Position numbers and translations under genes: made by a program
Shown here: positions 43,939-55,995 of the stretch, piece after piece
Layout of the letters: every line of letters starts with the position of its first letter
Position numbering within the stretch: the stretch's first letter is position 1
Notes under the pieces: generated by a model
What the model was told of the DNA's origin: nothing
The model's database searches: none
The model's input: the letters and a program-made list of their open reading frames with translations, nothing else
Source: Actinacidiphila rubida
GTDB lineage: Bacteria > Actinomycetota > Actinomycetes > Streptomycetales > Streptomycetaceae
Reading direction: 5' to 3'
NCBI RefSeq assembly: GCF_900110255.1
Contig: NZ_FODD01000016.1
Location: 62,001 to 126,000 of the forward strand
Length of the DNA: 64,000 bases

Positions 43939-45996
43939 TCAGCGGTCCTGCCCGCACAGGTCGGTGAGCAGCGTGGCGGCGATCCCCCGCCCGTTCTGCG
44001 TCAGCACCGACTCCAGGTGGAACTGCACCGAGCTGAACCGCTTGCTGCGCAGGGCGTGCACCTCGCCCGTGCGGTCGTCCCGGCTCACCTCGACCGACAC
44101 CCCGAGCTCAGGGCTGGTCAGCACGTCCCGGTCGCACTCCGCGACGTAGGAGTTGTACGAGCCGACGCGCTGCGGTTCGCCGAACAGGCTGATCCGCCGC
44201 TGCACGCCCTGGTGGGCCTCGCGGCGCCGCCGGATCGGCAGGCCCAGCTGCGAGCTGAGCACCTGGTGGCTCAGGCACACCGCGAGGAACGGCACGCTGC
44301 CGGCGAGCAGCGTCCGGACGACGGCGTGCAGCCGCGCGATCCGCGGGTCGTCGAGCGCCAGTGGGCTGCCCGGGCCGGGGCCCAGCAGCACGCAGTCCAC
44401 GCCGTCCAGCGTGAACTCCTCGGCCACCGAACGGATCCCGACCGGGCAGCCCAGGGCGCGCACGTGGTGCGCGAGCATCGAGGTGAAGGTGTCCTCGGCG
44501 TCGAGCACCAGCACCCGGGGGCTGCCCGGCACGGTGGCCTCGTCCTGCGACGCTTCCCCGACGCCGCCTGCGTGCGGGGCCACGGGCCCGTCCACGGACC
44601 CGTCCGCACGGGCCGGGCCGAGCCAGAACCCGTTGAGCCGGGTGTTCCTGGCCAGCAGCGCCTGCCGCACCCGCGGATCGTCCTGCGGGGCGGCGGCCGT
44701 ACCCGGCTGCCCTCCGGCGTTCGGCCGGTGCGCGGCGGGCGGCCCGCCGACGCCCATCGCGCCCAGCAGGCCGCGGACCTTCGCCCGGGTCTCGTCCGCC
44801 TCGGCGGCCGGCCGCGAGTGCCGTACGACGGTCGATCCGGCGCCGACCCGCAGCCGCCCGTCGGGACGGATCTCCGCGGTGCGGATGAGGATCGCGGAGT
44901 CCAGCCGGTCGCCGCCGTGCGCGTCCCTGCTGATCAGCGCGGCGACACCGCTGTAGTAGCCGCGCCCGCCGCGCTCGTGGCGGGCGATCACGCGGAAGGC
45001 GTTCACCAGCGGGCTGCCCACGACGGTCGGCGCGAACATCGTGCCGCGCAGGATCCGCGCGGGCGGCAGCGCGGTCGGGCCGGAGATGACGTACTCGGTG
45101 TGCGCGAGGTGCGCCATCATGCGCAGCCGGGGGCCGTCGACCCGCACCCCGGTGCCGCAGACGGCGGCCATCATCTTCAGTTCCTCGTCGAGCACCATGA
45201 ACAGCTCGTCGGACTCCTTGCCGTCGCCGAGGAACCCGACGAGCCCGTCGGCCGTCGGCCCGCCCTCGGGGTACCGGTAGGTGCCGCTGATCGGGTTCAT
45301 CGTCGCGACGCCGCCGGCCAGCGTGACGTGCCGTTCGGGGGTGGCGCCGACGAGCGTGCGGCCGCGGGTGCGGACCAGGAACGTCCAGTAGGCACCGCGC
45401 TCGTGCCGCAGCAGGTGGTGGAACACCGCGAGCGCCTTGGCCACCGAGAAGTCCGGTATGTCGGCGAGGAACGAGCGGCTGATGACGAAGTTCGCGCCCT
45501 CGCCGCCGCCGATCTCGTCGGCCGTCACCCGCCGGACCGTCTCCTCGTACGCCGAGTCGTCGACGTCGAACGCGCCGGTGGCGACGGCCCGCGACGTCGC
45601 GGGGTCCACCGGTCCGGGGTCCTGGAGCGTGACGCGGAGGTGGTCGTGCACCCGCATCGCCAGCAGCGCGGCGTCGTCCTCCCGGCAGCGCATCCCGCGT
45701 TCGGCGGCCGTGCGGTAGGGGACGAGCAGGAAGACCGGCGAGCCGTCGTGGTCGTCGGGCGCCGGCACGTCGTCCAGGCCGGCCAACTCCCGCACCGGTC
45801 CGGCGAGCAGTTCGACGACAGGGCGGCCGTCGACGTCGGCGGGGAGCACGCCGTCCGCACCAGGGCGGCGCAGCAGCACGAACTCGGAGGGCAGCTCGGC
45901 TGGTTGCAGCAGTCCCGCGTACGCAGGCGTGCCCGTGGCCCGGCCCGGCGAGCGGCTTCCCGCGTCCCCGCCCGCCTCCGCCGGACCGGCGCTCAC
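43939..45996 (-). CDS. phzE: PhzE-like 2-amino-2-desoxyisochorismate synthase
   Basis: A 685-residue fusion of a chorismate-utilising (TrpE-like) domain (~100-420) and a class I glutamine amidotransferase domain (~495-680). The amidotransferase triad is visible as the Cys in [13 protein letters not shown] and His-Glu in VQFHLESV. The synthase half carries [13 protein letters not shown], the [12 protein letters not shown] segment and [12 protein letters not shown]. PhzE-type enzymes turn chorismate plus glutamine into ADIC and, unlike TrpE, do not eliminate pyruvate. The neighbouring PhzD-like gene supports PhzE over anthranilate synthase. The GTG start overlaps the PhzD-like stop by 4 bases. 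It is the last gene of the minus-strand operon. Confidence 0.88.
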
Positions 45997-46646
45997 CGTC
46001 CGGCCCCCGCCAGTGCCAGCGCGCCGAGCACCTCGTCGGTCGTGGTCGGGACCGCGCAGCGCCCGGCCGCGTACTCCAGTGCCATCTTGTGGTCGGCCGC
46101 GGAGAAGTCGGCGAGCGCGTCGGCGGCCAGAAAGGGCTCGATGTCGTGGGAGTAGGCGTCGACGGCCGTGACCAGGCAGCCGATGTGGGCGTAGACGCCG
46201 CAGACGACGAGCTGGTCCCGCCCCTGCTCACGCAGGAAGGCGAGCAGACCGGTGCGGTGGAAGGCGCTGTAGCGCCACTTGGTGAAGACCTGGTCGCCGG
46301 GTGCGGGCGCCAGCGGTTCCACGATCGCCCGTGCCGCCGGGTCCCTGCTCATCCCCGGGCCCCAGAACTCGCTGAGCAGCCCGCGCTCCCGCGCAGTCAT
46401 GCCGCCGGGCTGGGCGGTGTACGCGACCGGCACCCCGGCCGCGCGGCACCCCTCCCGCAGACGCGCCGCGTTGGCGACCAGGGTGGTCACCGGCTCGCGA
46501 CCGGCGGGGAACATGTCGAGGAAATAGTGCTGCATGTCGTGGACGAGCAGCACGCACCGCTGCGCGTCGAGCCGCCAGCGCGCGGTGCCGGCCGGAAGAT
46601 CCTCACGCGTCGGCATCGGGTACGCCTCGATCGGCGGTATCTGCAT
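45993..46646 (-). CDS. phzD: PhzD-like isochorismatase
   Basis: A 217-residue isochorismatase-fold hydrolase that should cleave the enolpyruvyl ether of ADIC to give trans-2,3-dihydro-3-hydroxyanthranilate (DHHA). The N-terminal [10 protein letters not shown] and [12 protein letters not shown] match PhzD, with the catalytic Asp in VHDMQ and Lys in FTKWRYSAF. In [10 protein letters not shown] the residue equivalent to the nucleophilic Cys of cysteine hydrolases is glycine, as in PhzD and EntB, so the enzyme uses acid-base chemistry. ATG at 46646 has GGGAGG 5 bases upstream. It lies between the SDR and PhzE genes. Confidence 0.9.
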
Positions 46647-46693
46647 GGTGCCCTCCCAGGCTGGGGGTCCGAGCGGCCTCTGCGCGGCGGGTG

Positions 46694-47497
46694 TCATGCG
46701 CCGAGCACGGCGCCGCCGTCGACGCACAGGTCCTGCATGGTGATGTGGCCGGAGCGCGCGGACAGCAGGAACAGCACCGCGTCCGTGATGTCCGCGGGCC
46801 GCGCCAGCTTGCGCAGCGGGATGCCGAGCCGGTACGCGGCGGGGTCGCCGTCGACGGTGTGCACGGGGCCCGAGTCGTCGGTCCACATCGACCGCAGCAT
46901 GGGCGTGTCCGTCGACCCCGGGCTGACGACGTTGCAGCGGATGCCGAACGCCGCCGCCTCCAGCGCCAGCGACTTCGCGAAGTGCGCGGTCGCCGCCTTC
47001 GACGCCCCGTACGCGGCCATCTGGGCGCGCGGCACCCGCCCGGCGTTGGAGGCGACGGTGACGATCGTGCCGCGGCGCCGCGGCATCATGCGCCGCAGCA
47101 CCGCCCGCGACAGGTGGAACACCCCGTCGACGTTGACCGAGAAGATGTGCCGCCAGTCCTCGTCGGTGGTCGTGGCGACGTCGCCAAGCCGCAGCACCCC
47201 GGCCGCGCTGACCAGGTGGTCGATGGGGCCGCAGGCGTCCTCCACCTCGGCGACCGCACGGTCCACGGCGCCCGAGTCGGCGACGTCCACCGCGACCGGC
47301 AGCACGGAGAATCCGGCTGCGGCACACTCCTCCGCGGCCGCACGCACGGCCTTCGCGTCGCGGTCCAGCAGCGCCACCGTGCTGCCGCACGCGGCCAGCG
47401 TCTGCGCGACGTGGCGCCCGATGCCGCTGCCCGCGCCGCTGACCACCGCCGTGGTGCCCGCGAACTCCCCGTCCGTCACCGGGTCGTGGCCGTTCAT
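46694..47497 (-). CDS. DhbA/EntA-like dehydrogenase, likely forming 3-hydroxyanthranilate
   Basis: A 267-residue short-chain dehydrogenase close to 2,3-dihydro-2,3-dihydroxybenzoate dehydrogenases. It has SGAGSGIG for cofactor binding, LLDRD suggesting NAD+, SAAG near residue 100, the catalytic Ser in VASNAG and YGASK with Tyr and Lys. Because it sits between an AMP ligase and PhzD/PhzE, its substrate is most likely DHHA, which it would aromatise to 3-hydroxyanthranilate, as known for benzoxazole- and pyrrolobenzodiazepine-type pathways. ATG at 47497 overlaps the ligase stop by 4 bases. Confidence 0.85.
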
Positions 47498-49194
47498 GCC
47501 AGTACCTCCCCGTCCACCGTCGCGTGCGTTCCGCCGGCCGCCGCGAACGCGGAGAGGTCGGCGTACCGGTCTCGCAGCAGGCGCTTGAGCGTCTTGCCGG
47601 TCGGCCCGGTCGGCACCGCCTCGCCCGCGCCGGTGAGGTCGAGCAGCCCCAGCGCCGGCTGGCCGGCAGCGGTGAGCGCGCGGTTGGCGCGCGCCAGCAG
47701 ATCCCGGGGATCGGGCGTGCCAGGTCCGGCGTGCGGGCGCACCAGCGCGACCGCGACCTCGGCACCGTCCCGCCGCCCCGCGACCACCGCGCAGTCCGCG
47801 ACGTCCGGCAGCCCCGCCAGCAGGATCTCCTCCATCAGCAGCGAGTAGCCGACCCCCTGCCCAGCCGGCCTGATGACGTCCACGACGCGGTCCATGTGGA
47901 AGAACTGGCCGTGGGCGTCGCGGTACACCAGATCCCCGGACAGCCAGTAACCGCCCAGCATGCTGCGGTAGTAGCGGTCGCTGTCGTCCCAGTAGCCGGG
48001 CGTCACCGAGTCGCTGCGCACCCCCAGCCGGCCCACCTCGCCCGCCTCGGCCTCGGTGCCGTCGTCGCGGAACACCCGCACGTCCGCGAGCTCGGTGGTG
48101 GTGCCGATGTAACCCGGCCTGGACGGCATGTCGTCGATGACCACGCGGTGCAACGCGGCCCAGCCCAGCTCCGAGGAGCCGAGGCCGTCGCCGAACACCG
48201 AGCCCGGACGCCGCCTCTTGCGCACCACGTGGTGTCCGAGAGCGGTGAGGCGCCTGATGTGCTCGTGGTGCGCGGAGTCGCCGATGTTGATCCAGCTCGC
48301 CACCGAGTCGAACGCCTCCGTGTCGATCTCGGAGGTCGCCAGCGCCGAGAAGGCCTCGTTGAACGCCAGGACGATGGTGGGGCGGTGGCGGCGGGCCGCC
48401 TCGGTCAGCCGCCCCGGACCGGATCCGGCCACGGCCACCAGCGGGAGACCGGCGAGCAGCGCGTAGAAGGTGAAGCCGATCGCGCCCGAGTGGGACTGCG
48501 GGAGCGCCGACAGCAGCACCGAGTCCTCACGTTCGATCTGGGTGCGAAGCCGGAACCGCGGTCCCGCGGCGCTCTGCCCGTGCGACCAGACGACGAGCTT
48601 CGGCAGGCCCGTCGTGCCCGAGGTGTGGCAGATGCCGATCGGGTCGTCCGCGCTGTGCCGGTACCTGGCCGCGTCGGGCAGCCCCGTCGCCCCCGCCGGT
48701 TCGCCGCCGGTGCCGCACCGCGTCCAGCGCAGGGACGGCGCCAGGTCACCGGGCGACGGCAGCCGCGCCAGGCGGGACCGGTCGGTGTAGAGCCCGACGG
48801 GGTCGGCGCGCGCGATGAGCCGGGCCGCGACCCCGGGGTCCATCCGCCCGTTGAGCAGCACCGGGATCGCGCCGAGCTGCGCCAGCGCGGCCAGGTGCAG
48901 CTGGTCCTCGAAGGAGTCGTCGACGTAGACCACGACCCGGTCACGCGGACGCACCCCCAGATCGAGGTACCAGGCGGACAACGCGTCGGCGCAGACGTTG
49001 AGTTCGGCGATGCTGAACACCGTCCGCGCGGACCCGTCGGGAGCCGGCAGCGGTGTGTCGGTGGTGAGCAGCGGCGCGTCCGGTGCCGCGCTGTGCTCCA
49101 GGGCGGTCCGCCACACGTTGCCGCCGCCGAACGTCTCGGCCCCGCCGAGGCGGGTGCGGGCGGGGCCGTCCAGCAGCGTGCGGGAATTCGGCAT
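47494..49194 (-). CDS. AMP-forming acyl/aryl ligase
   Basis: A 566-residue class I adenylate-forming enzyme. Core motifs are A3 [18 protein letters not shown]7 GDLVYRD and the A10 lysine in PTGKTLKRL. It would activate a carboxylic acid as an acyl-AMP and pass it to CoA or a carrier protein. It is the first gene of the phz-type operon and could activate 3-hydroxyanthranilate or the acid joined to it. ATG at 49194 has GAAGGTGA 7 bases upstream. It is divergent from the ACP2/ligase pair, with repeated TACCCG motifs in between. Confidence 0.82.
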
Positions 49195-49220
49195 GTGTCA
49201 CCTTCGCTACCTGGCACGTG

Positions 49221-49333
49221 GATTCACGCTGAATCTAGGTCGGCGGCCGGAGGGCGATAACCCGCGCGAACGGGTAGGCGGCAGGACAGAGCAGGTGGTG
49301 GCGGCCCGGCTACCCGACCGCGGGGGTTACCCG
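49221..49333. promoter_or_regulatory. Divergent control region with a dyad and four TACCCG-type motifs
   Basis: GATTCACGCTGAATC (49221-49235) is a 6-bp dyad. TAACCCG (49258-49264), CTACCCG inverted (49271-49277), CTACCCG (49310-49316) and TTACCCG (49327-49333) recur between the two divergent operons, the first two as an inverted pair. They are candidate sites for the cluster LuxR regulator; this is inference. Confidence 0.5.
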
Positions 49334-49462
49334 GCCCCGCGTGCGAACGGAGGATGTGACGAGCAGCTGCGACCGGAACCGGGACCGGCGGACGCGGCCG
49401 GCGGCAGGACGGCCGGCCCGCGCGCCGGGTGCCGGCCCGGCGCCCCGACACGAGGAGACCTG

Positions 49463-49717
49463 GTGCCCGCCACCCCGGAAGCCGCCACGCGGGAGCGCCT
49501 GCGGGCGATCCTCGCGGACATCCTCGAAATGGACGTGACGGACGGCGACGTGGACGCGTCGTTCTACGACGACCTGGGTGTCAGCTCGCTGGAGAAGGTC
49601 GCGATCGTCACCCGGGTGGAGAACGAGTTCGCGGTGACCCTCACCGACGGCGAGGCCGCCGCCATGACGAGCCTGCGCAGCGCGGTGACGGTGCTCGCGG
49701 ACAAGGGCGTGCGGTGA
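49463..49717 (+). CDS. Acyl carrier protein 2
   Basis: An 84-residue carrier protein with the phosphopantetheine serine at S42 in LGVSSLEKVAI, where the usual Asp before the Ser is itself Ser. It follows the ACP helix pattern (RLRAILADILEMDVTDGDV). GTG at 49463 has GAGGAG 7 bases upstream. It overlaps the benzoate-CoA-ligase-like gene by 4 bases (GTGA), which strongly suggests that this ligase loads it with the aromatic acid. Confidence 0.85.
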   Translation: MPATPEAATRERLRAILADILEMDVTDGDVDASFYDDLGVSSLEKVAIVTRVENEFAVTLTDGEAAAMTSLRSAVTVLADKGVR

Positions 49718-51333
49718 GCGGCACCGATCTGGTCGGACGGCTGACGGGTACGCAGCTGGCCGCCGGCCGCGGCGGGCACACCGCCTACGCGGACCCGGAC
49801 GCCGGAGAGGTCTCCTACGCGCGGCTGCACGCCGCCGCCCGGCGGTACGCGCGGGCACTCGACGCGTCCGGTGTCCGCGCCGGGTCCCGCGGGCTGATCG
49901 TCGCCGAGGACTCGGTCGCCACCGTCGTCGCGGTCCTCGGCTCGTGGTGGCACGGCAGCGTGCCCGTCCCGGTCAGCCCGTTGCTGCCCGACGCCGACAT
50001 GGACCACGTCGTCCGGGACTGCGCGCCGCGGTTCGTGTACCTCGACGTGCGGGCCAGGCGCGCCGGCCGGCTGCTGCGGTTCGCCGGCGGCGCGCCGGCC
50101 GTCGACGCCGCGGCGGTGCTCGCGGCGGTGCGCGCGGACGCCGGACCGCACGAGACCCTGGGGGAGGAGTTCGTGGACGACGTGCCGGGTCCGGCCCGCT
50201 GGCCGGACGGCACCGACGCCCTCGTCCAGTACACCTCCGGCAGCACCGGCGCACCCAAGGGCGTGCGGCACTCCGCCGACGCGATCACGGCCATGCTCGC
50301 CGGGTTCGGCAGCACGGTTCCGCTGCGGCCCGAGGACCGCGTGCTGGCCACCGCGCGGATGAGCTTCGGCTACGGCTTCGGCAGCTCGGTGCTGTGCCCG
50401 CTGGCCGCGGGCGCGACCGTGGTGCTCATCCGCGGCGCGGTCGACGTCCACTCCGTGACGGCCGCGGTGCGACGGCACCGTCCGACGGTGCTGTGCTCGG
50501 TGCCGCGGATGTACGCCGCGCTCCTGGACCACGTCGAACGCCGGGACTCTCCGGACCTGGACCGCGGCGACCACCGGGAAGGCCAGGGCACGCGGGAGCC
50601 GTCGGAACGCCGCTCGGACGACGCGTTCGGCACGCTGCGGCTGTGCCTGTCGGCGGGCGAGAACTGCCCGCCCGAGCTGGCCGGGCGCATCCGCGCCTCC
50701 TTCGCACCGGACCTCGTCAACTGCCTCGGCGCCACTGAGGCGTTGCACGTGGTACTGGCGGGCCACGCCGGAGGCGGGGCCGTCGGAGCGCTCGGTCACG
50801 CGGTGGCGGGGACGACCGCGACGGTGCGCGACGAGGAGGGGCGCGAGGTCTCCGCGGGGACCCGGGGGCGCCTGCACGTCGCCGGCCCCACCGTCTCCCT
50901 CGGCTACACCGGGCAGCCCGGCACGACCGCGTTCGCCGACGGCGGCCTGTACACCGGGGACGTCGTGCTCCGGCACCCGGACGGCAGCTTCGACTACGTG
51001 TGCCGCAGCGACGACCTGCTGATGCTCGGCGGCCACAAGGTCGCGCCGGGGGAGATCGAGTCGGTCGTGCGCGCCGCCGACGGGGTCGGGGACTGCGCTG
51101 TGGTGGGCAGCGACGACGAGCACGGCCTGACGGTCGCCGTCGTGTACGTGGTTCCGGCGTCCGGCGCGGAACCGGACGCGGTCCGGCGGTCGGTCGCCGC
51201 GGCGCTCCGTGCCGGACTGCCCGCCTACAAGCGGCCCTCGGGCATCCGGCTGCTGGCGGAGCTGCCGGTGACGGTCACCGGCAAGGTCGCCGCGCACCGC
51301 CTGCGCGCACAGAGCGCCACCCGCACCCGCTGA
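49714..51333 (+). CDS. Benzoate-CoA-ligase-like aryl-acid AMP ligase
   Basis: A 539-residue adenylate-forming enzyme of the benzoate-CoA ligase branch. Motifs are QYTSGSTGAPKGVRHS, SFGYGFGSSVLCPLAAGATVVL (typical of that branch), GATEALHV, YTGDV and the A10 lysine in VTGKVAAHRL. It should activate an aromatic acid, most likely 3-hydroxyanthranilate, for transfer to ACP2 whose gene it overlaps. An unusual hydrophilic Arg/Asp/Glu-rich stretch encoded at about 50538-50625 interrupts the region before LRLCLSAGENCP and looks like an inserted loop. The gene converges on the LuxR gene. Confidence 0.85.
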   Translation: MSGTDLVGRLTGTQLAAGRGGHTAYADPDAGEVSYARLHAAARRYARALDASGVRAGSRGLIVAEDSVATVVAVLGSWWHGSVPVPVSPLLPDADMDHVVRDCAPRFVYLDVRARRAGRLLRFAGGAPAVDAAAVLAAVRADAGPHETLGEEFVDDVPGPARWPDGTDALVQYTSGSTGAPKGVRHSADAITAMLAGFGSTVPLRPEDRVLATARMSFGYGFGSSVLCPLAAGATVVLIRGAVDVHSVTAAVRRHRPTVLCSVPRMYAALLDHVERRDSPDLDRGDHREGQGTREPSERRSDDAFGTLRLCLSAGENCPPELAGRIRASFAPDLVNCLGATEALHVVLAGHAGGGAVGALGHAVAGTTATVRDEEGREVSAGTRGRLHVAGPTVSLGYTGQPGTTAFADGGLYTGDVVLRHPDGSFDYVCRSDDLLMLGGHKVAPGEIESVVRAADGVGDCAVVGSDDEHGLTVAVVYVVPASGAEPDAVRRSVAAALRAGLPAYKRPSGIRLLAELPVTVTGKVAAHRLRAQSATRTR

Positions 51334-51357
51334 ACCGCCCCCCGGCAGTCGCCGACC

Positions 51358-51392
51358 GGCCACCGGCCGTCGGTACGTGACGGCCGGTGGCC
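51358..51392. terminator. Bidirectional terminator, 14-bp perfect stem
   Basis: 51358-51371 pairs perfectly with 51379-51392 around a 7-base loop, between the convergent ligase and LuxR genes. Confidence 0.85.
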
Positions 51393-51459
51393 TCCGGACG
51401 CTCCATCGGCCGCCGGGCAGCACCCGGAGGCCGGAGGACCACTCGCGCGCGGGGCCGGT

Positions 51460-52863
51460 TCAGGCGCCTTCCCGCAGGCAGTACGTGGCAAGCTCCACCC
51501 GGGAGCGGATCTCCAGCTTCTCGAAGATCCGCCGCAGGTGGTAGTTCACGGTGTGCGGCGAACGCCGCAGCGAGTGCGCGATCTGCTGGTTGGTCATGCC
51601 GGACGACACCAGGTGCGCGATGCGCAGCTCCGTCGTGGTGAGCAGGCTCGCCGCGCGCTCCGGGACCTCCGAACGGGCCTGCCGGTGCGGCGTCGCCACG
51701 GCGACGAGCTCCGCCTCGACGGTCCTGGCCGGCTCGCGGCGCCGGTCGAGCGACCGCAGGTGCTCGCCCGCCAGCCGGGCCGCCCACAGGTCACGGTGCG
51801 CCGAGGCGGCCTCGCGCAGTGCCTCCGTGTCGTGTCCCAGCAGCGCCCGTGCGTGCAGCGCGGTGGCCCGCACCGTCGGATACCCCGGGTTGCCGGCCGC
51901 CAGGCGCTCCACGGCGGCGACGACGCTCGTGGCCAGGAGCACGTCCCCCGCGGTCTGGGCCAGCCGCACCAGCCAGGGTGCCGCGGCCGCGTCCATGACG
52001 AACAGCGCGGGGCAGTCCAGCAGGTCGGCGTACTCCTCGGTGAACGTCTCCACCGCCCGCTCGGCGTTGAGGCCGATGGTCGACACCAGGTACTCGCACC
52101 ACCGGTACGCGAACGACGGGCGCACCAGCGGGTCGCCGGTGAACTCGGCCCGGCACTTCCACATCGAGTCGCAGGCCGCACGCAGGTCGGGGCGGCGCAG
52201 GTCGGTGAGCGCCAGCAGCAGCAGCCCGTACCGCGTGGTCCAGTCCGCTCCGGCGCCCGCGGCCCGCCCGACCGTCCCGGAGATCTTCCGCCGCGCCGCG
52301 CGGAACATGCTCGACGCGTACAGCAGGCGGCCCTTGCCGATCTCCACGTCCACCGCGGCCGGATGGTCCTCGCGGTGCGCGGCCGCCGCGTCCGCGGCCT
52401 TGATCAGGACCTCGGCCTCGTCCAGTTCGCCGATGTCCAGCAGCTTCTCCGCGAGCGCCAGGCACGGGTAGGGGCGCCAGGGGTCAGGGACGCCCTCGCC
52501 GTTCAGCGCCACCGCGTGGCGGCCCCAGCGCATGCCCTCGTCGAGGTCGCCCGCCTCCCAGGCCAGGTTCGACAGGACCGTCGCCGCGACCACCGTCTCG
52601 GCCGTCCCGGCGTCCGCGGACAGGATCTCCCGGGCGCGTTCCGCGGTTCCGCCGTCCGGCGAGAGGAGGCCGGCGATGCGCTGCGCCTGGCGGCCGAAGT
52701 CGCCCAGCCCGTAAACGATTCCGGCATGCACGTCCTCCACCACCCCCGGGGGCAGCTCGCCCAGGGCGCCGTTCCGGGCGAGCAGCAGTACCGGGAAAAG
52801 GCGATTCGCCGTCCCGTACCGGTGGTTGACCGTGCTCGTCGACATGCCGAATGCAACTGCCAT
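51460..52863 (-). CDS. LuxR-family regulator with TPR-like N-terminal region
   Basis: A 467-residue regulator, likely specific to the biosynthetic cluster it borders. The C-terminal ~65 residues are a LuxR HTH (TTELRIAHLVSSGMTNQQIA, then SPHTVNYHLRRIFEKLEIRSR). The rest is helical, with Ala/Leu-rich repeats like the C-terminal half of LAL regulators, but without the Walker A/B ATPase domain, so it resembles a truncated LAL. ATG at 52863 has GGGGAG 10 bases upstream; an ATG at 52845 and a longer ORF reaching 53094 are alternatives. The sites it recognises may be the TACCCG repeats at 49258-49333. Confidence 0.82.
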   Translation of the reverse strand: MAVAFGMSTSTVNHRYGTANRLFPVLLLARNGALGELPPGVVEDVHAGIVYGLGDFGRQAQRIAGLLSPDGGTAERAREILSADAGTAETVVAATVLSNLAWEAGDLDEGMRWGRHAVALNGEGVPDPWRPYPCLALAEKLLDIGELDEAEVLIKAADAAAAHREDHPAAVDVEIGKGRLLYASSMFRAARRKISGTVGRAAGAGADWTTRYGLLLLALTDLRRPDLRAACDSMWKCRAEFTGDPLVRPSFAYRWCEYLVSTIGLNAERAVETFTEEYADLLDCPALFVMDAAAAPWLVRLAQTAGDVLLATSVVAAVERLAAGNPGYPTVRATALHARALLGHDTEALREAASAHRDLWAARLAGEHLRSLDRRREPARTVEAELVAVATPHRQARSEVPERAASLLTTTELRIAHLVSSGMTNQQIAHSLRRSPHTVNYHLRRIFEKLEIRSRVELATYCLREGA

Positions 52864-53400
52864 CGTCCGCTGACTCCCCGTGCGGTCTGGTGATTCGGTG
52901 TGCGGGTTCCGCGATGCTGGTGCGACATTTCCCGATGCCGCACCGGAACACCGGACCGTCGCGGGGGATCTCCCCGGCGGTCCCGGGAGAGGAGTCCGGA
53001 ACGTGTCCGGAGCCGGTCCAGCCAGGAACGATGGAGCCAGGACCGCCCGCGCCGCACCGGATCGTGGGACAGCGGGCAGTACGTGGCCGGTCACAGTCAG
53101 TCTAGGGCGGTCCGATGGTCATTCCATAGGCCCCGGGTCGCCGATTTCCGGCGCCCGGTGCGCTTTGGGTCCACAGGAATGGATTTTCCGCGAGTCCGCG
53201 AGCGAAGAGGAAAAAGCACGAAAAACGGGGGAGTGCGGCACGGACAAGACGGGCAGCGCGGTCCGGTTCCCGCCCGTGCGTGGCCCCCGGGCGGCCGGGT
53301 GACAGGGCTCCGCGCGGGCCCGCCATGGGGGATCGGAAGACGTCCGCCGCACGTGGGCTCAAGGCGGACTCGAGACCGTGTCGAGCGGCCGTTCCGTTGC

Positions 53401-53733: not shown

Positions 53734-54147
53734 GTGTCCGGCATCGACGAGTGCCTGCTCGAGGCCATGCGGCTGCCCGGCGCACGGGGCGCCGCCCTGG
53801 TCGAGTGGGTCAGCGGGCTGGCGCTCGGGGTCGTCGGGGAGGCGCCCGGCGGTGACCACGAGGTGATGGCCGCCGAGGCCGCCGAGTTCGCCCGCGGCGC
53901 CGCGGAGATGCCGGTGTTCACCGGCCCCGGGGGGCCCGCCGCCGAACAGGAACCCGCCGATGCCAAGGCGCTGCCCGTCGAGGACGTCATCGTCGTCGCC
54001 CGCACCGGTTACCACCTGCTGCGCTTCCTCGAAGCCCCGTACGAGGGCGGGGTGTTCCTCCACCTGTGGCTGGACCGCGGCCAGGCGAACCTCGCCCTGT
54101 CACTGATGCGCATGCGCGACCTGGCGGAACGGCTGGTCCTCGAATGA
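53734..54147 (+). CDS. Roadblock/LC7 domain protein 1
   Basis: A 137-residue Roadblock/LC7 (MglB-like) protein. The pattern IDECLLEAMRLPGARGAALVEWVSGLALGVVGE aligns with the third Roadblock gene product at 55583, and the second half has VIVVARTGYHLLRFL and VFLHLWLDRGQANLALSLMRM. Such proteins dimerise and act on small Ras-like GTPases. GTG at 53734 is preferred because AAGGGGG lies 5 bases upstream and the ORF extension to 53698 has no ribosome site. Its stop overlaps the next ATG by 4 bases. No GTPase gene is adjacent. Confidence 0.78.
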   Translation: MSGIDECLLEAMRLPGARGAALVEWVSGLALGVVGEAPGGDHEVMAAEAAEFARGAAEMPVFTGPGGPAAEQEPADAKALPVEDVIVVARTGYHLLRFLEAPYEGGVFLHLWLDRGQANLALSLMRMRDLAERLVLE

Positions 54148-54971
54148 GCCCACACGTGCCCTCGATGCTGGTGCGGCTCGCCGAACGCGGCGCCACCGGA
54201 GCCCTGATACGCGACACCGGGGCGCTATACCTGGCCGACGGCGCCGTCGTCCACGCCGAGTCGCCGGCCGCTCCCGGCATCGACGTGCTGCTCACCGCGG
54301 ACGGGCGGCTGCCGAGCGAGCAGTGGCGCGAGGCGATGGACGCCGCGGGCCCGCACTGCCGCATCGCCCGCTATCTGCTCGACCACGGACGCCTGTCCGG
54401 CGCCGAGCTGGAGATCCGCCACCTGAGCGCCCTGTACGACGCCGCGTACTTCGTCCTGGCGCCGGACGGCGGCCCGTCCCGGTTCCGGCACGGAGCCGTG
54501 CACTGGTTCGGGCGGGTCCGGCCGGTCGGCGTGGCGGACGTGGAGCGGGAGTCCCGGCGGCGCCGCCGCTATCTGACCGACCTGTGGCCGCACGCCCATC
54601 TGGACGCGGTTCCGCCCGTCCGCCGTCGACACGCCGCCCGGCTGCCCCCGGTTCCCCGGCGCCAGCAGGACGTCCTCGACCTCGCCGACGGGCGCCACAC
54701 GCCCGCGCTGATCGCCGCGAAGCTGGGCCGGCCCGCGTTCCACACCCTGGTCGACATCCGCCGCCTGGCCGCCTCGGGGCACCTGGAGACGCGCACGTCG
54801 CCGCCACCGGGCCCGGGCCACGCCGAGGCCGCCGGTCCCGGTGCCGTCGCGGCCGGCGCCCCGCGCGGCGCCGCCGTCCGCCGTCTCCCGTTCCCCTTCC
54901 CGGACACCGCGGAAGACGTCGACGTGGTCGTGCTGCGCCGGCTCCGCGACGCATTGGAGGCCCACCTGTGA
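54144..54971 (+). CDS. DUF4388-like protein with C-terminal winged-helix-like region
   Basis: A 275-residue protein. Residues ~5-115 resemble DUF4388 (RLAERGATGALIRDTGALYLADGAVVHAESPAAPG), a module seen in bacterial two-component and gliding-motility proteins. After a basic linker, residues ~170-215 (DVLDLADGRHTPALIAAKLGRPAFHTLVDIRRLAASGHLE) look like a winged helix of the type that follows DUF4388. A Pro/Ala linker then ends in a short acidic helix (DVDVVVLRRLRDALEAHL). ATG overlaps the first Roadblock stop, so the two are coupled. It may connect Roadblock signalling to DNA or to a partner protein; function unproven. Confidence 0.62.
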   Translation: MSPHVPSMLVRLAERGATGALIRDTGALYLADGAVVHAESPAAPGIDVLLTADGRLPSEQWREAMDAAGPHCRIARYLLDHGRLSGAELEIRHLSALYDAAYFVLAPDGGPSRFRHGAVHWFGRVRPVGVADVERESRRRRRYLTDLWPHAHLDAVPPVRRRHAARLPPVPRRQQDVLDLADGRHTPALIAAKLGRPAFHTLVDIRRLAASGHLETRTSPPPGPGHAEAAGPGAVAAGAPRGAAVRRLPFPFPDTAEDVDVVVLRRLRDALEAHL

Positions 54972-55053
54972 CTCCCCCTGCCGCCGCCACCGCGGCACCC
55001 CCCGCGCCGTGATGCGGCGGGGGCTCCGACAACGCGCCGAGAGGAGGAAACTG

Positions 55054-55446
55054 ATGGCGCACGAAGGTGAAGTGCGCGACGAACTGGCCCGGCTGCGGGC
55101 CCGCACCGCCGACGTGACCGCGGTCGTCGCCGCGAGCGTGGACGGCCTGGTCCTGGCCGCCGACCCGCCGGTGGAGGACGCGGAAGGAATCGCCGCGCTG
55201 ACGGCCGCCGCGCTGGGCGTCGGGCTGCGGCTCGCCGACACCACCGGCCGCGGCGCGTTCCGCGAACTGCTCGTCCACGGCGAGAGCGGATACGTCGCCA
55301 CGTACGCCGCGGGAATCGGCTGCGTCCTGACCGTCCTGGCCGGCCCCCGCGTCAACGTCGGGCGCCTGCACATGGAGGCACGGCGCGCAGGCGCCCGTGT
55401 GGCCGAACTTCTCGACGGCGCCGCCGTACGACTGGAGGACAGCTGA
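55054..55446 (+). CDS. Roadblock/LC7 domain protein 2
   Basis: A 130-residue Roadblock protein closest to the conservon CvnB/MglB pattern: ELARLRARTADVTAVVAASVDGLVLAADPP, a middle GYVATYAAGIGCVLTVLAG strand pair and the C-terminal RLHMEARRAGARVAELLD helix. ATG at 55054 has a near-perfect GGAGG 6 bases upstream. In conservons this protein is encoded between a sensor kinase and a DUF742/GTPase pair, none of which is present here. Confidence 0.82.
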   Translation: MAHEGEVRDELARLRARTADVTAVVAASVDGLVLAADPPVEDAEGIAALTAAALGVGLRLADTTGRGAFRELLVHGESGYVATYAAGIGCVLTVLAGPRVNVGRLHMEARRAGARVAELLDGAAVRLEDS

Positions 55447-55582
55447 CGCCATGACCACCCCCCGCTCGCCGAGGGCGCGCGGCACCGCCGCGCACGCGCG
55501 GGCCCCCCACCCCGCGCAACCGACCGACCGATCCGACCCGCCGGGCACTCCGGCACCAGCCCAGCAAGGGAGCAAGCGCACC

Positions 55583-55957
55583 ATGGCCAACACCGAAACC
55601 GCCCTGAAGGACGCGATGACCTCGATCGAAGGAGTCATCGGCGTCGCACTCGTCGACTACACCAGCGGCATGGCCCTGGGCACCATCGGCGGAGGCAAGG
55701 ACCTCGACCTCAACGTCGCGGCGGCCGGCAACACCGACGTCGTCCGCGCCAAGGTCCGCACCATGGAGATGCTCGGCCTCAAGGACGAGATCGAGGACAT
55801 CCTCATCACCCTGGGCACCCAGTACCACCTGATCCGGCTGCTCAGCGGCCGCGGCAAGTCCGGCCTGTTCCTCTACCTCGCCCTCGACAAGAACCGGGCG
55901 AACCTGGCGATGGCCCGCCACCAGCTCCGCAGCATCGAGGCCGACCTGGAGGTCTGA
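55583..55957 (+). CDS. Roadblock/LC7 domain protein 3
   Basis: A 124-residue protein, clearly related to the first gene of the locus: ALKDAMTSIEGVIGVALVDYTSGMALGTIGGG, ILITLGTQYHLIRLL and LFLYLALDKNRANLAMARHQL. It has fewer charged loops and looks better conserved. ATG at 55583 is chosen because the conserved domain begins there and AGGGAG lies about 10 bases upstream; an in-frame ATG at 55451 would add a 44-residue Pro/Arg-rich tail. A strong terminator follows, closing the four-gene locus. Confidence 0.8.
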   Translation: MANTETALKDAMTSIEGVIGVALVDYTSGMALGTIGGGKDLDLNVAAAGNTDVVRAKVRTMEMLGLKDEIEDILITLGTQYHLIRLLSGRGKSGLFLYLALDKNRANLAMARHQLRSIEADLEV

Positions 55958-55960
55958 CCG

Positions 55961-55995
55961 GCCGGCCGGCGCGCGCCCCCAGCGCGCCGGCCGGC
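55961..55995 (+). terminator. Terminator of the Roadblock operon
   Basis: A 14-bp perfect stem (55961-55974 with 55982-55995) and 7-base loop, directly after the stop codon at 55957. Confidence 0.85.

Follow-up and report, generated by a model that had tools for sequence, protein, structure and literature searches.

Small-GTPase switches are usually read as a GTPase accompanied by a GTPase-activating protein (GAP) and a guanine nucleotide exchange factor (GEF). Among actinobacteria, the closest described system is the conservon (cvnABCD; actinobacterial G protein system), a compact operon that encodes the sensor kinase CvnA, the Roadblock/LC7 protein CvnB, the DUF742 protein CvnC and the GTPase CvnD. 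For the GTPase MfpB, the CvnB homologue MfpD has been described as the GAP and the mycobacterial CvnC homologue MfpC as the likely GEF (PMC13343842; preprint PMC13015309). In Myxococcus, a second roadblock protein, MglC, shares less than 9% identity with MglB (PMC7949163), binds MglB and, together with RomR, forms a complex (PMC7949163; PMC10329633). Here we describe a locus of Actinacidiphila rubida in which regulators of this kind are encoded with no GTPase beside them: four codirectional plus-strand genes, in the order A-B-C-D, at positions 53,734–55,957 of a 64,000-nucleotide stretch of contig NZ_FODD01000016.1 (the window, by which we mean the whole stretch). The cassette is a maintained module and not a broken conservon, and it presents a conserved set of regulators without a GTPase, whose relatives keep one.

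Measured against the conservon, with which it shares host genomes and a compact operon layout, the cassette has a CvnB-type roadblock (C) and, in B, a CvnC-like winged helix and C-terminal helix; unlike the conservon, it has neither the sensor kinase CvnA nor the GTPase CvnD, its B carries a DUF4388 region, and it includes the extra roadblocks A and D. As in the Myxococcus MglA/MglB/MglC/RomR module, a GAP-type roadblock is combined with a divergent second roadblock, although that module also includes MglA and RomR, and structure comparison gives A and D no particular likeness to MglC. We know of no DUF4388/winged-helix partner in the Myxococcus polarity module. The Pfam family DUF4388 is presumably the PATAN domain. 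PATAN-type proteins near MglA/MglB genes, and hence near a roadblock, are on record, but the link concerns some Group 1 and Group 5 MglA members and not a GTPase-free actinobacterial operon (PMC4316618, citing Makarova et al., 2006). Orphan roadblocks in themselves are already on record: 328 orphan MglB homologues have been reported, among them a small clade from actinobacteria whose members are all orphans with no conservon genes beside them (PMC4316618). All 205 Streptomyces strains of a pangenome study share a Roadblock/LC7 orthologue group (PMC9640686), and the “LC7” genes of two transcriptome papers (PMC7317143; PMC3992018) could not be tied to the cassette. What appears to be new, beyond the published orphan MglB genes and PATAN–MglA neighborhoods, is the GTPase-free roadblock–DUF4388 cassette itself, a set of roadblock–DUF4388–GTPase triads in other actinobacteria, and the pairing of D with ArsR-type regulators; in the open-licence papers searched, no description of any of the three was found, and none joins DUF4388 and roadblock.

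Within the cassette, A and B overlap by 4 bases, and gaps of 82 and 136 bases separate B from C and C from D. No kinase or GTPase is encoded at 53,734–55,957, and the profile hidden Markov models (HMMs) for CvnA, CvnB, CvnC and CvnD claim no frame of the window. A tblastn search of the window with nine CvnD-type proteins returned no GTPase remnant (best E 0.25), and the CvnA HMM found nothing in the window or in 80 named loci retrieved from relatives. The original prediction, made from the letters of the window, of three roadblocks and a DUF4388-like protein without kinase or GTPase is borne out by Pfam, structural models, HMMs and tblastn. Its label of a “Roadblock-only” locus is right as to the missing GTPase and kinase and undersells B, whose C-terminal half is CvnC-like, while its “three divergent” roadblocks are indeed three, of which one is of CvnB/MglB type (C) and two belong to a second family (A and D).

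Gene C (55,054–55,446, plus strand) encodes a 130-residue CvnB/MglB-type roadblock with an Asp-Gly loop, matched by Pfam Robl_LC7 (E 2.6e-16), by the CvnB profile in hhalign (E 1.1e-10) and, in the PDB, by cvnB5 (3leq; E 6.4e-11). Genes A (53,734–54,147, plus strand; GTG start; 137 residues) and D (55,583–55,957, plus strand; 124 residues), the latter being the most conserved of the four at 81–94% identity across the 80 loci, encode divergent roadblocks that are homologous to one another (hhalign E 2.8e-40). Because C matches CvnB, and A and D match each other but neither CvnB nor C (hhalign to C, E 0.32 and 0.79, respectively), we distinguish one CvnB/MglB-type roadblock from two members of a second, divergent roadblock family. 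Pfam searches with the window's own A and D gave no match for either, and Robl_LC7 was matched by 21 of 57 A/D relatives in a family scan that admitted E values up to 1 (best 4.4e-4). Membership in Roadblock/LC7 is thus given by Pfam for C, by the model for D, and through homology to D for A. The AlphaFold model of D (mean predicted local distance difference test, pLDDT, 90.6) has the Roadblock/LC7 fold: Foldseek listed MglC at the top (E 6.7e-7), together with Ragulator subunits, a Streptomyces avermitilis roadblock (1.8e-6) and MglB (2.4e-6), and in VIA the best Z was 17.4 (an archaeal roadblock, 116 residues), with 17.2 for MglB and 12.2 for MglC. Orthology of A and D to MglC, as the top Foldseek row might suggest, was set aside on the higher VIA Z scores to MglB and others. 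The loop residue before Gly is Asp in 79 of 80 C rows; it is Ser in all 81 D rows and in 68 of 74 A rows. An S-x-D-G pattern is matched by 22 of 28 CvnB rows, and Asp-Gly is the motif discussed for MfpD (PMC13343842). Input to the structure models comprised 22 of 81 D, 35 of 79 A-like and 52 of 75 B rows, the window's own counted.

Gene B (54,144–54,971, plus strand; ATG start) encodes a 275-residue protein in which DUF4388 is followed by a winged helix and a C-terminal helix that both resemble those of CvnC, an assignment drawn from the model, hhalign and Pfam. Its DUF4388-like N-terminal region spans about residues 9–120 (54,168–54,503, plus strand) by the hhalign columns; on the window's own B, Pfam DUF4388 (PF14332) aligns to residues 24–120 at E 0.004, below the Pfam cut-off. 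Membership is established through relatives, 50 of 52 of which match DUF4388 (family scan, E up to 1; best 3.2e-5), and through the alignment of B over 211 columns (hhalign E 8.4e-13) to the triad family, which has clear DUF4388 members. The C-terminal half consists of a winged helix at about residues 166–217 (54,639–54,794, plus strand; model helices 172–180, 187–194 and 198–210), a variable linker and then a conserved helix of consensus DPDxALLRRLRDALEA (54,909–54,965, plus strand; model helix 261–274), which in the family alignment and the hhalign alignment resembles the C-terminal helix of CvnC. Against CvnC (DUF742) this half scores E 2.5e-6 with an hhalign probability of 89%; as controls, the N-terminal half gives 0.48 against CvnC, and the C-terminal half gives 0.84 against CvnB, 0.0019 against CvnD and 0.77 against ArsR. 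DUF742 itself is matched by 8 of the 52 B relatives (E up to 1; best 0.0048) and, in the Pfam search, not by the window's own B. Winged helices as such are a generic fold: CvnC and ArsR themselves align at 0.0062. Mean pLDDT of the B model is 85.7, and the VIA rows for B, a list from which absence excludes nothing, cover mainly residues 145–220 (Z up to 8.1). A role for B as a binder of cyclic di-GMP was considered on a weak MshE row (Z 5.7, root-mean-square deviation 1.9, 59 residues aligned) and dropped: T2SSE_N is not matched, and an arginine that we take to belong to that motif is not conserved in the B alignment.

Conservation of this arrangement was followed by six-frame HMM matches, each frame being assigned to its best-scoring family; composition-based gene calling, which is poor on overlapping genes, was not the basis of the counts, and some “A” matches in cut contigs were cross-matches to D before that assignment. 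A search of 100 relatives with D, a query that detects A as well, gave matches in 62, and B has matches in 97 of 394 genomes sampled over the class, with a B match in 37 of the 40 same-family genomes among those listed (277 unmatched genomes being outside that list). The order A-B-C-D is strict in 73 of the 80 named loci; L060 (locus, family and contig numbers are our own handles) has all four genes with A split over two frames, and contig ends cut the cassette in L076, L102, L107 and L112. Two named loci, L074 and L099, have A-C-D in order with B absent. The 211 loci counted in all include repeat fetches of the same genome (for example L142/L250, L246/L290 and WIN/L241), and the 133 collinear loci are likewise not independent genomes (102 exceed 8 kb and 31 have short flanks). 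Median gaps between HMM matches in these 133 are 23, 74 and 108 bases, with outliers up to 2,675, and the gaps fall below 150 bases in 127, 130 and 102 of the loci. Collinear cassettes occur in families f1, f6 and f19, and their neighbors are variable, the commonest neighbor family being present at 32 of 77 loci.

A diverged version of the cassette, in which D' faces away from A'-B'-C', occurs in 14 loci, whose D' proteins form a single clade (support 99/96). The four families have therefore been kept through rearrangement, which is good evidence that their products work together. The conserved order, the varying neighbors and this diverged copy with the same four families are our grounds for regarding the cassette as a maintained module, and the “variant signaling unit” of the original prediction, for which conserved synteny had been named as the check, has held up on the same evidence. 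B and C make the firmest pair, C lying near 159 of 163 B genes; L278–L280 have B and C with no A or D detected, and in five loci of family f20 D faces B, with no A detected. One Streptomyces locus (L100, 10,885–12,286) has, besides a full A-B-C-D, a second, diverged B+C pair on the opposite strand.

Weak B matches across the class (24 regions fetched of 40 counted) led to DUF4388/winged-helix proteins encoded between a roadblock and a CvnD-type GTPase. Both partners are adjacent in 15 of 23 such triad-type proteins (L292, L294, L296–L300, L303–L305 and L311–L315, from other actinobacterial families); L308 has the roadblock, and its contig ends just behind the DUF4388 gene, and the other seven lie in unrelated contexts or are cut. 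Neither CvnA nor CvnC was found in the retrieved stretch of any of the 23, and neither A nor D was detected in the triads. The L292 protein matches DUF4388 at E 5.9e-21; 16 of 17 high-scoring members of the triad family have a common C-terminal tail (…SLLLRLIAGVRGL or close to it) that resembles the tail of CvnC, and 13 triad GTPases placed in a tree form one clade apart from conservon CvnD (100/100). Because B aligns with the triad DUF4388 family, the window's cassette is, on sequence grounds, best seen as kin to the roadblock–DUF4388–GTPase module, minus the GTPase and plus A and D. Triads such as L292, L294 and L298 share with it a DUF4388 and winged-helix protein beside a CvnB/C-type roadblock, with no CvnA or CvnC adjacent, whereas they keep the GTPase, and A and D are undetected in them; an adjacent CvnD-type GTPase is missing from the window and present in one of the 133 collinear loci. 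The cassette and the triads hence offer a natural comparison for how roadblock and CvnC-like proteins function when no switch is dedicated to them. The triads of L292 and L294 stand near what are presumably whiA and yvcK genes. Locus L293 (695–5,224) encodes a protein of 1,509 residues whose N-terminus is DUF4388-like, scoring 63.9 bits against the triad family; it also has a long Glu/Arg/Leu/Ala repeat and, presumably, a CheA-type kinase and a receiver domain.

Roadblocks apart, conservon genes are absent from the 80 named loci except for L116 (Streptomyces sp. RPT161), in which a CvnD GTPase gene precedes A by about 70 bases, giving the order GTPase-A-B-C-D. The original prediction had allowed that the four genes might adjoin a kinase or GTPase in relatives, which would make the locus a broken conservon; within the retrieved flanks such an arrangement exists as an exception, in L116 alone of 133 collinear loci. 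In a tree, the closest group to the L116 GTPase is formed by the CvnD proteins of a conservon pair, represented in the window's genome by the copies L001 and L003 on contig C48 (joint group 99/93), and because it groups with the CvnD of an existing conservon it looks acquired. In family f3 (L129, L157, L159 and L161), a D gene by itself faces away from genes of a conservon (CvnA, CvnC and CvnD in all four, CvnB in three), and L275 has A-B-C without D, with a conservon some 5.5 kb away in the same orientation. The window's genome encodes eight CvnD-type GTPases, each next to one of its eight DUF742 genes. As all eight CvnD genes adjoin DUF742 genes, no CvnD GTPase is free for the cassette, and an orphan CvnD-type GTPase elsewhere in the genome is ruled out, the search having been confined to this GTPase family.

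Our proposal, which we judge to stand at an even chance, is that the cassette is a conserved signaling operon, the regulator half of an actinobacterial G protein system that acts in trans on a conservon GTPase. The roles that we assign follow the MfpD/MfpC and MglB–MglC–RomR precedents: C would assemble with A and D into heterodimers or higher oligomers, on the pattern of MglB and MglC in Myxococcus, and would supply a GAP-like surface; B might act as an exchange factor or adaptor, in the manner of a CvnC-like partner; and A and D may set assembly or location. The complex would then target in trans one of the genome's eight conservon-type GTPases, and since the GTPase beside the L116 cassette groups with the conservon pair on contig C48, that pair would be the first candidate. 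On this proposal the cassette offers a clear way of testing for cross-talk with the genome's own conservons.

Several observations weigh against a G protein partner in trans. Dependence on a GTPase is a deduction from relatives, because a CvnD GTPase occurs in the retrieved flanks of only one of the 133 collinear loci (L116); moreover, CvnD-type GTPases are alike in number in genomes with the cassette (6–8 in eight genomes) and in those without a D match (7–9 in five genomes). In hhalign neither A (E 0.18) nor D (E 0.26) matches CvnB, the triad DUF4388 profile aligns with CvnC at a non-significant E of 0.026, and a Foldseek search of the PDB with the B model returned nothing significant (best E 1.2). 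The contacts among A–D, or with a GTPase, are drawn by analogy, and D also stands alone or beside ArsR genes.

The last point underlies the main rival. From among the D matches listed outside cassettes, 40 regions were fetched; 19 of the D genes retrieved lie more than 1.5 kb from any A, B, C, CvnA or triad protein, one of them being L076, whose contig begins 100 bases before D and which is probably a cut cassette. An ArsR-type gene lies within 700 bases of 12 of these 19 (12 of 18 without L076; L134, L136, L141, L143, L146, L147, L148, L150, L153, L154, L156 and L160), against about 0.08 expected from the density of ArsR genes in the 3.03 Mb of retrieved sequence. In 10 of the 12 pairs the ArsR gene is directly downstream on the same strand, at gaps of 2–203 bases, and Pfam HTH_5 confirms both ArsR proteins scanned. 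Some of these loci are near-orthologous, L146, L147 and L148 having nearly the same spacing, so the twelve are not twelve independent events. The D tree retains 14 of the 80 named loci and 3 of L226–L255, and a 1.2-kb rule makes “solo” the label of three of the four D genes that neighbor conservons; on this tree the pairing requires seven changes, at least 4 of them forced by well-supported branches. The pairing links roadblocks to transcription factors, a link that we did not find in the literature searched. It is accordingly possible, if clearly the less probable course, that the cassette serves transcriptional control without a GTPase, a D-type roadblock being the partner subunit of winged-helix proteins (B in the cassette, ArsR elsewhere) whose DNA binding or location it tunes with no need of a nucleotide switch. 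The excess of ArsR genes, its recurrence on the D tree and the lack of a GTPase in the window favor this reading; yet C keeps a CvnB-type loop, relatives of B adjoin GTPases, and D faces away from conservon genes in four loci. In no collinear cassette does an ArsR gene lie within 700 bases of the cassette's own D (in L134, a cassette locus counted with ArsR, the ArsR gene neighbors another D, which is solitary). That B binds DNA is moreover hypothetical, and CvnC, which shares the winged helix, is reported as a likely GEF (preprint PMC13015309). A wider version, which we consider rather doubtful, would make D-family roadblocks general partner subunits of winged-helix regulators, with the cassette, the D–ArsR pairs and D beside conservons as variants of one principle in which a GTPase is optional, the Streptomycetaceae cassette being the one that lacks it.

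Two further accounts fare worse. Roadblock hetero-oligomers and B might form a structural scaffold that places proteins in the hypha, with a non-transcriptional output and a loose GTPase tie; three roadblock genes per cassette and the fold of D would suit such a role, for which the RomR/MglC/MglB complex is a precedent (PMC10329633), but D, with its lower VIA score to MglC than to MglB, shows no special MglC kinship, and the account seems to us unlikely. Most improbable is that the cassette is an ordinary cvnABCD operon which in this lineage lost its kinase and GTPase. The resemblance of C to CvnB and of the C-terminal half of B to CvnC would be expected of such a remnant, orphan MglB genes where conservons have lost the GTPase gene have been described (PMC4316618), and A-B-C in L275 does lie near a conservon on the same strand. 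However, a GTPase-free four-gene set that recurs in families f1, f6 and f19 speaks against decay, A and D lack a CvnB profile match, B has an extra DUF4388, and no GTPase remnant is visible; given the recurrence of the set across families and the missing remnant, this account was set aside as the leading explanation.

Some minor features of the window and its genome complete the description. Behind D, at 55,961–55,995 (plus strand), a GC-rich hairpin of 14 pairs (−41.1 kcal/mol, z −2.35; 3 of 200 shuffles equally stable) may be a terminator; of the claim that the locus is closed by its own terminator, the stable hairpin stands, although it has no run of T and the terminator scan did not call it. 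Elsewhere in the genome, a CvnB-type roadblock (L002, 1,405–1,791; match G000:C57:21183-21455) has no conservon partners in its 3.3-kb stretch and is followed by a 406-residue protein. A conservon (L008/L011; G000:C66:13409-14125) has a roadblock gene with two Robl_LC7 domains in one frame. A solitary paralogue of C, 54.5% identical (L006, 1,477–1,875; match G000:C9:159007-159267), neighbors what we take to be a class I lysyl-tRNA synthetase gene. Upstream of the cassette, at 43,939–53,094 of the window, lies an apparent chorismate-derived biosynthetic cluster, in which the protein sequences suggest genes for an anthranilate/ADIC synthase-like enzyme, an isochorismatase-like enzyme, a short-chain dehydrogenase and two AMP ligases, followed by a presumed LuxR-type regulator.

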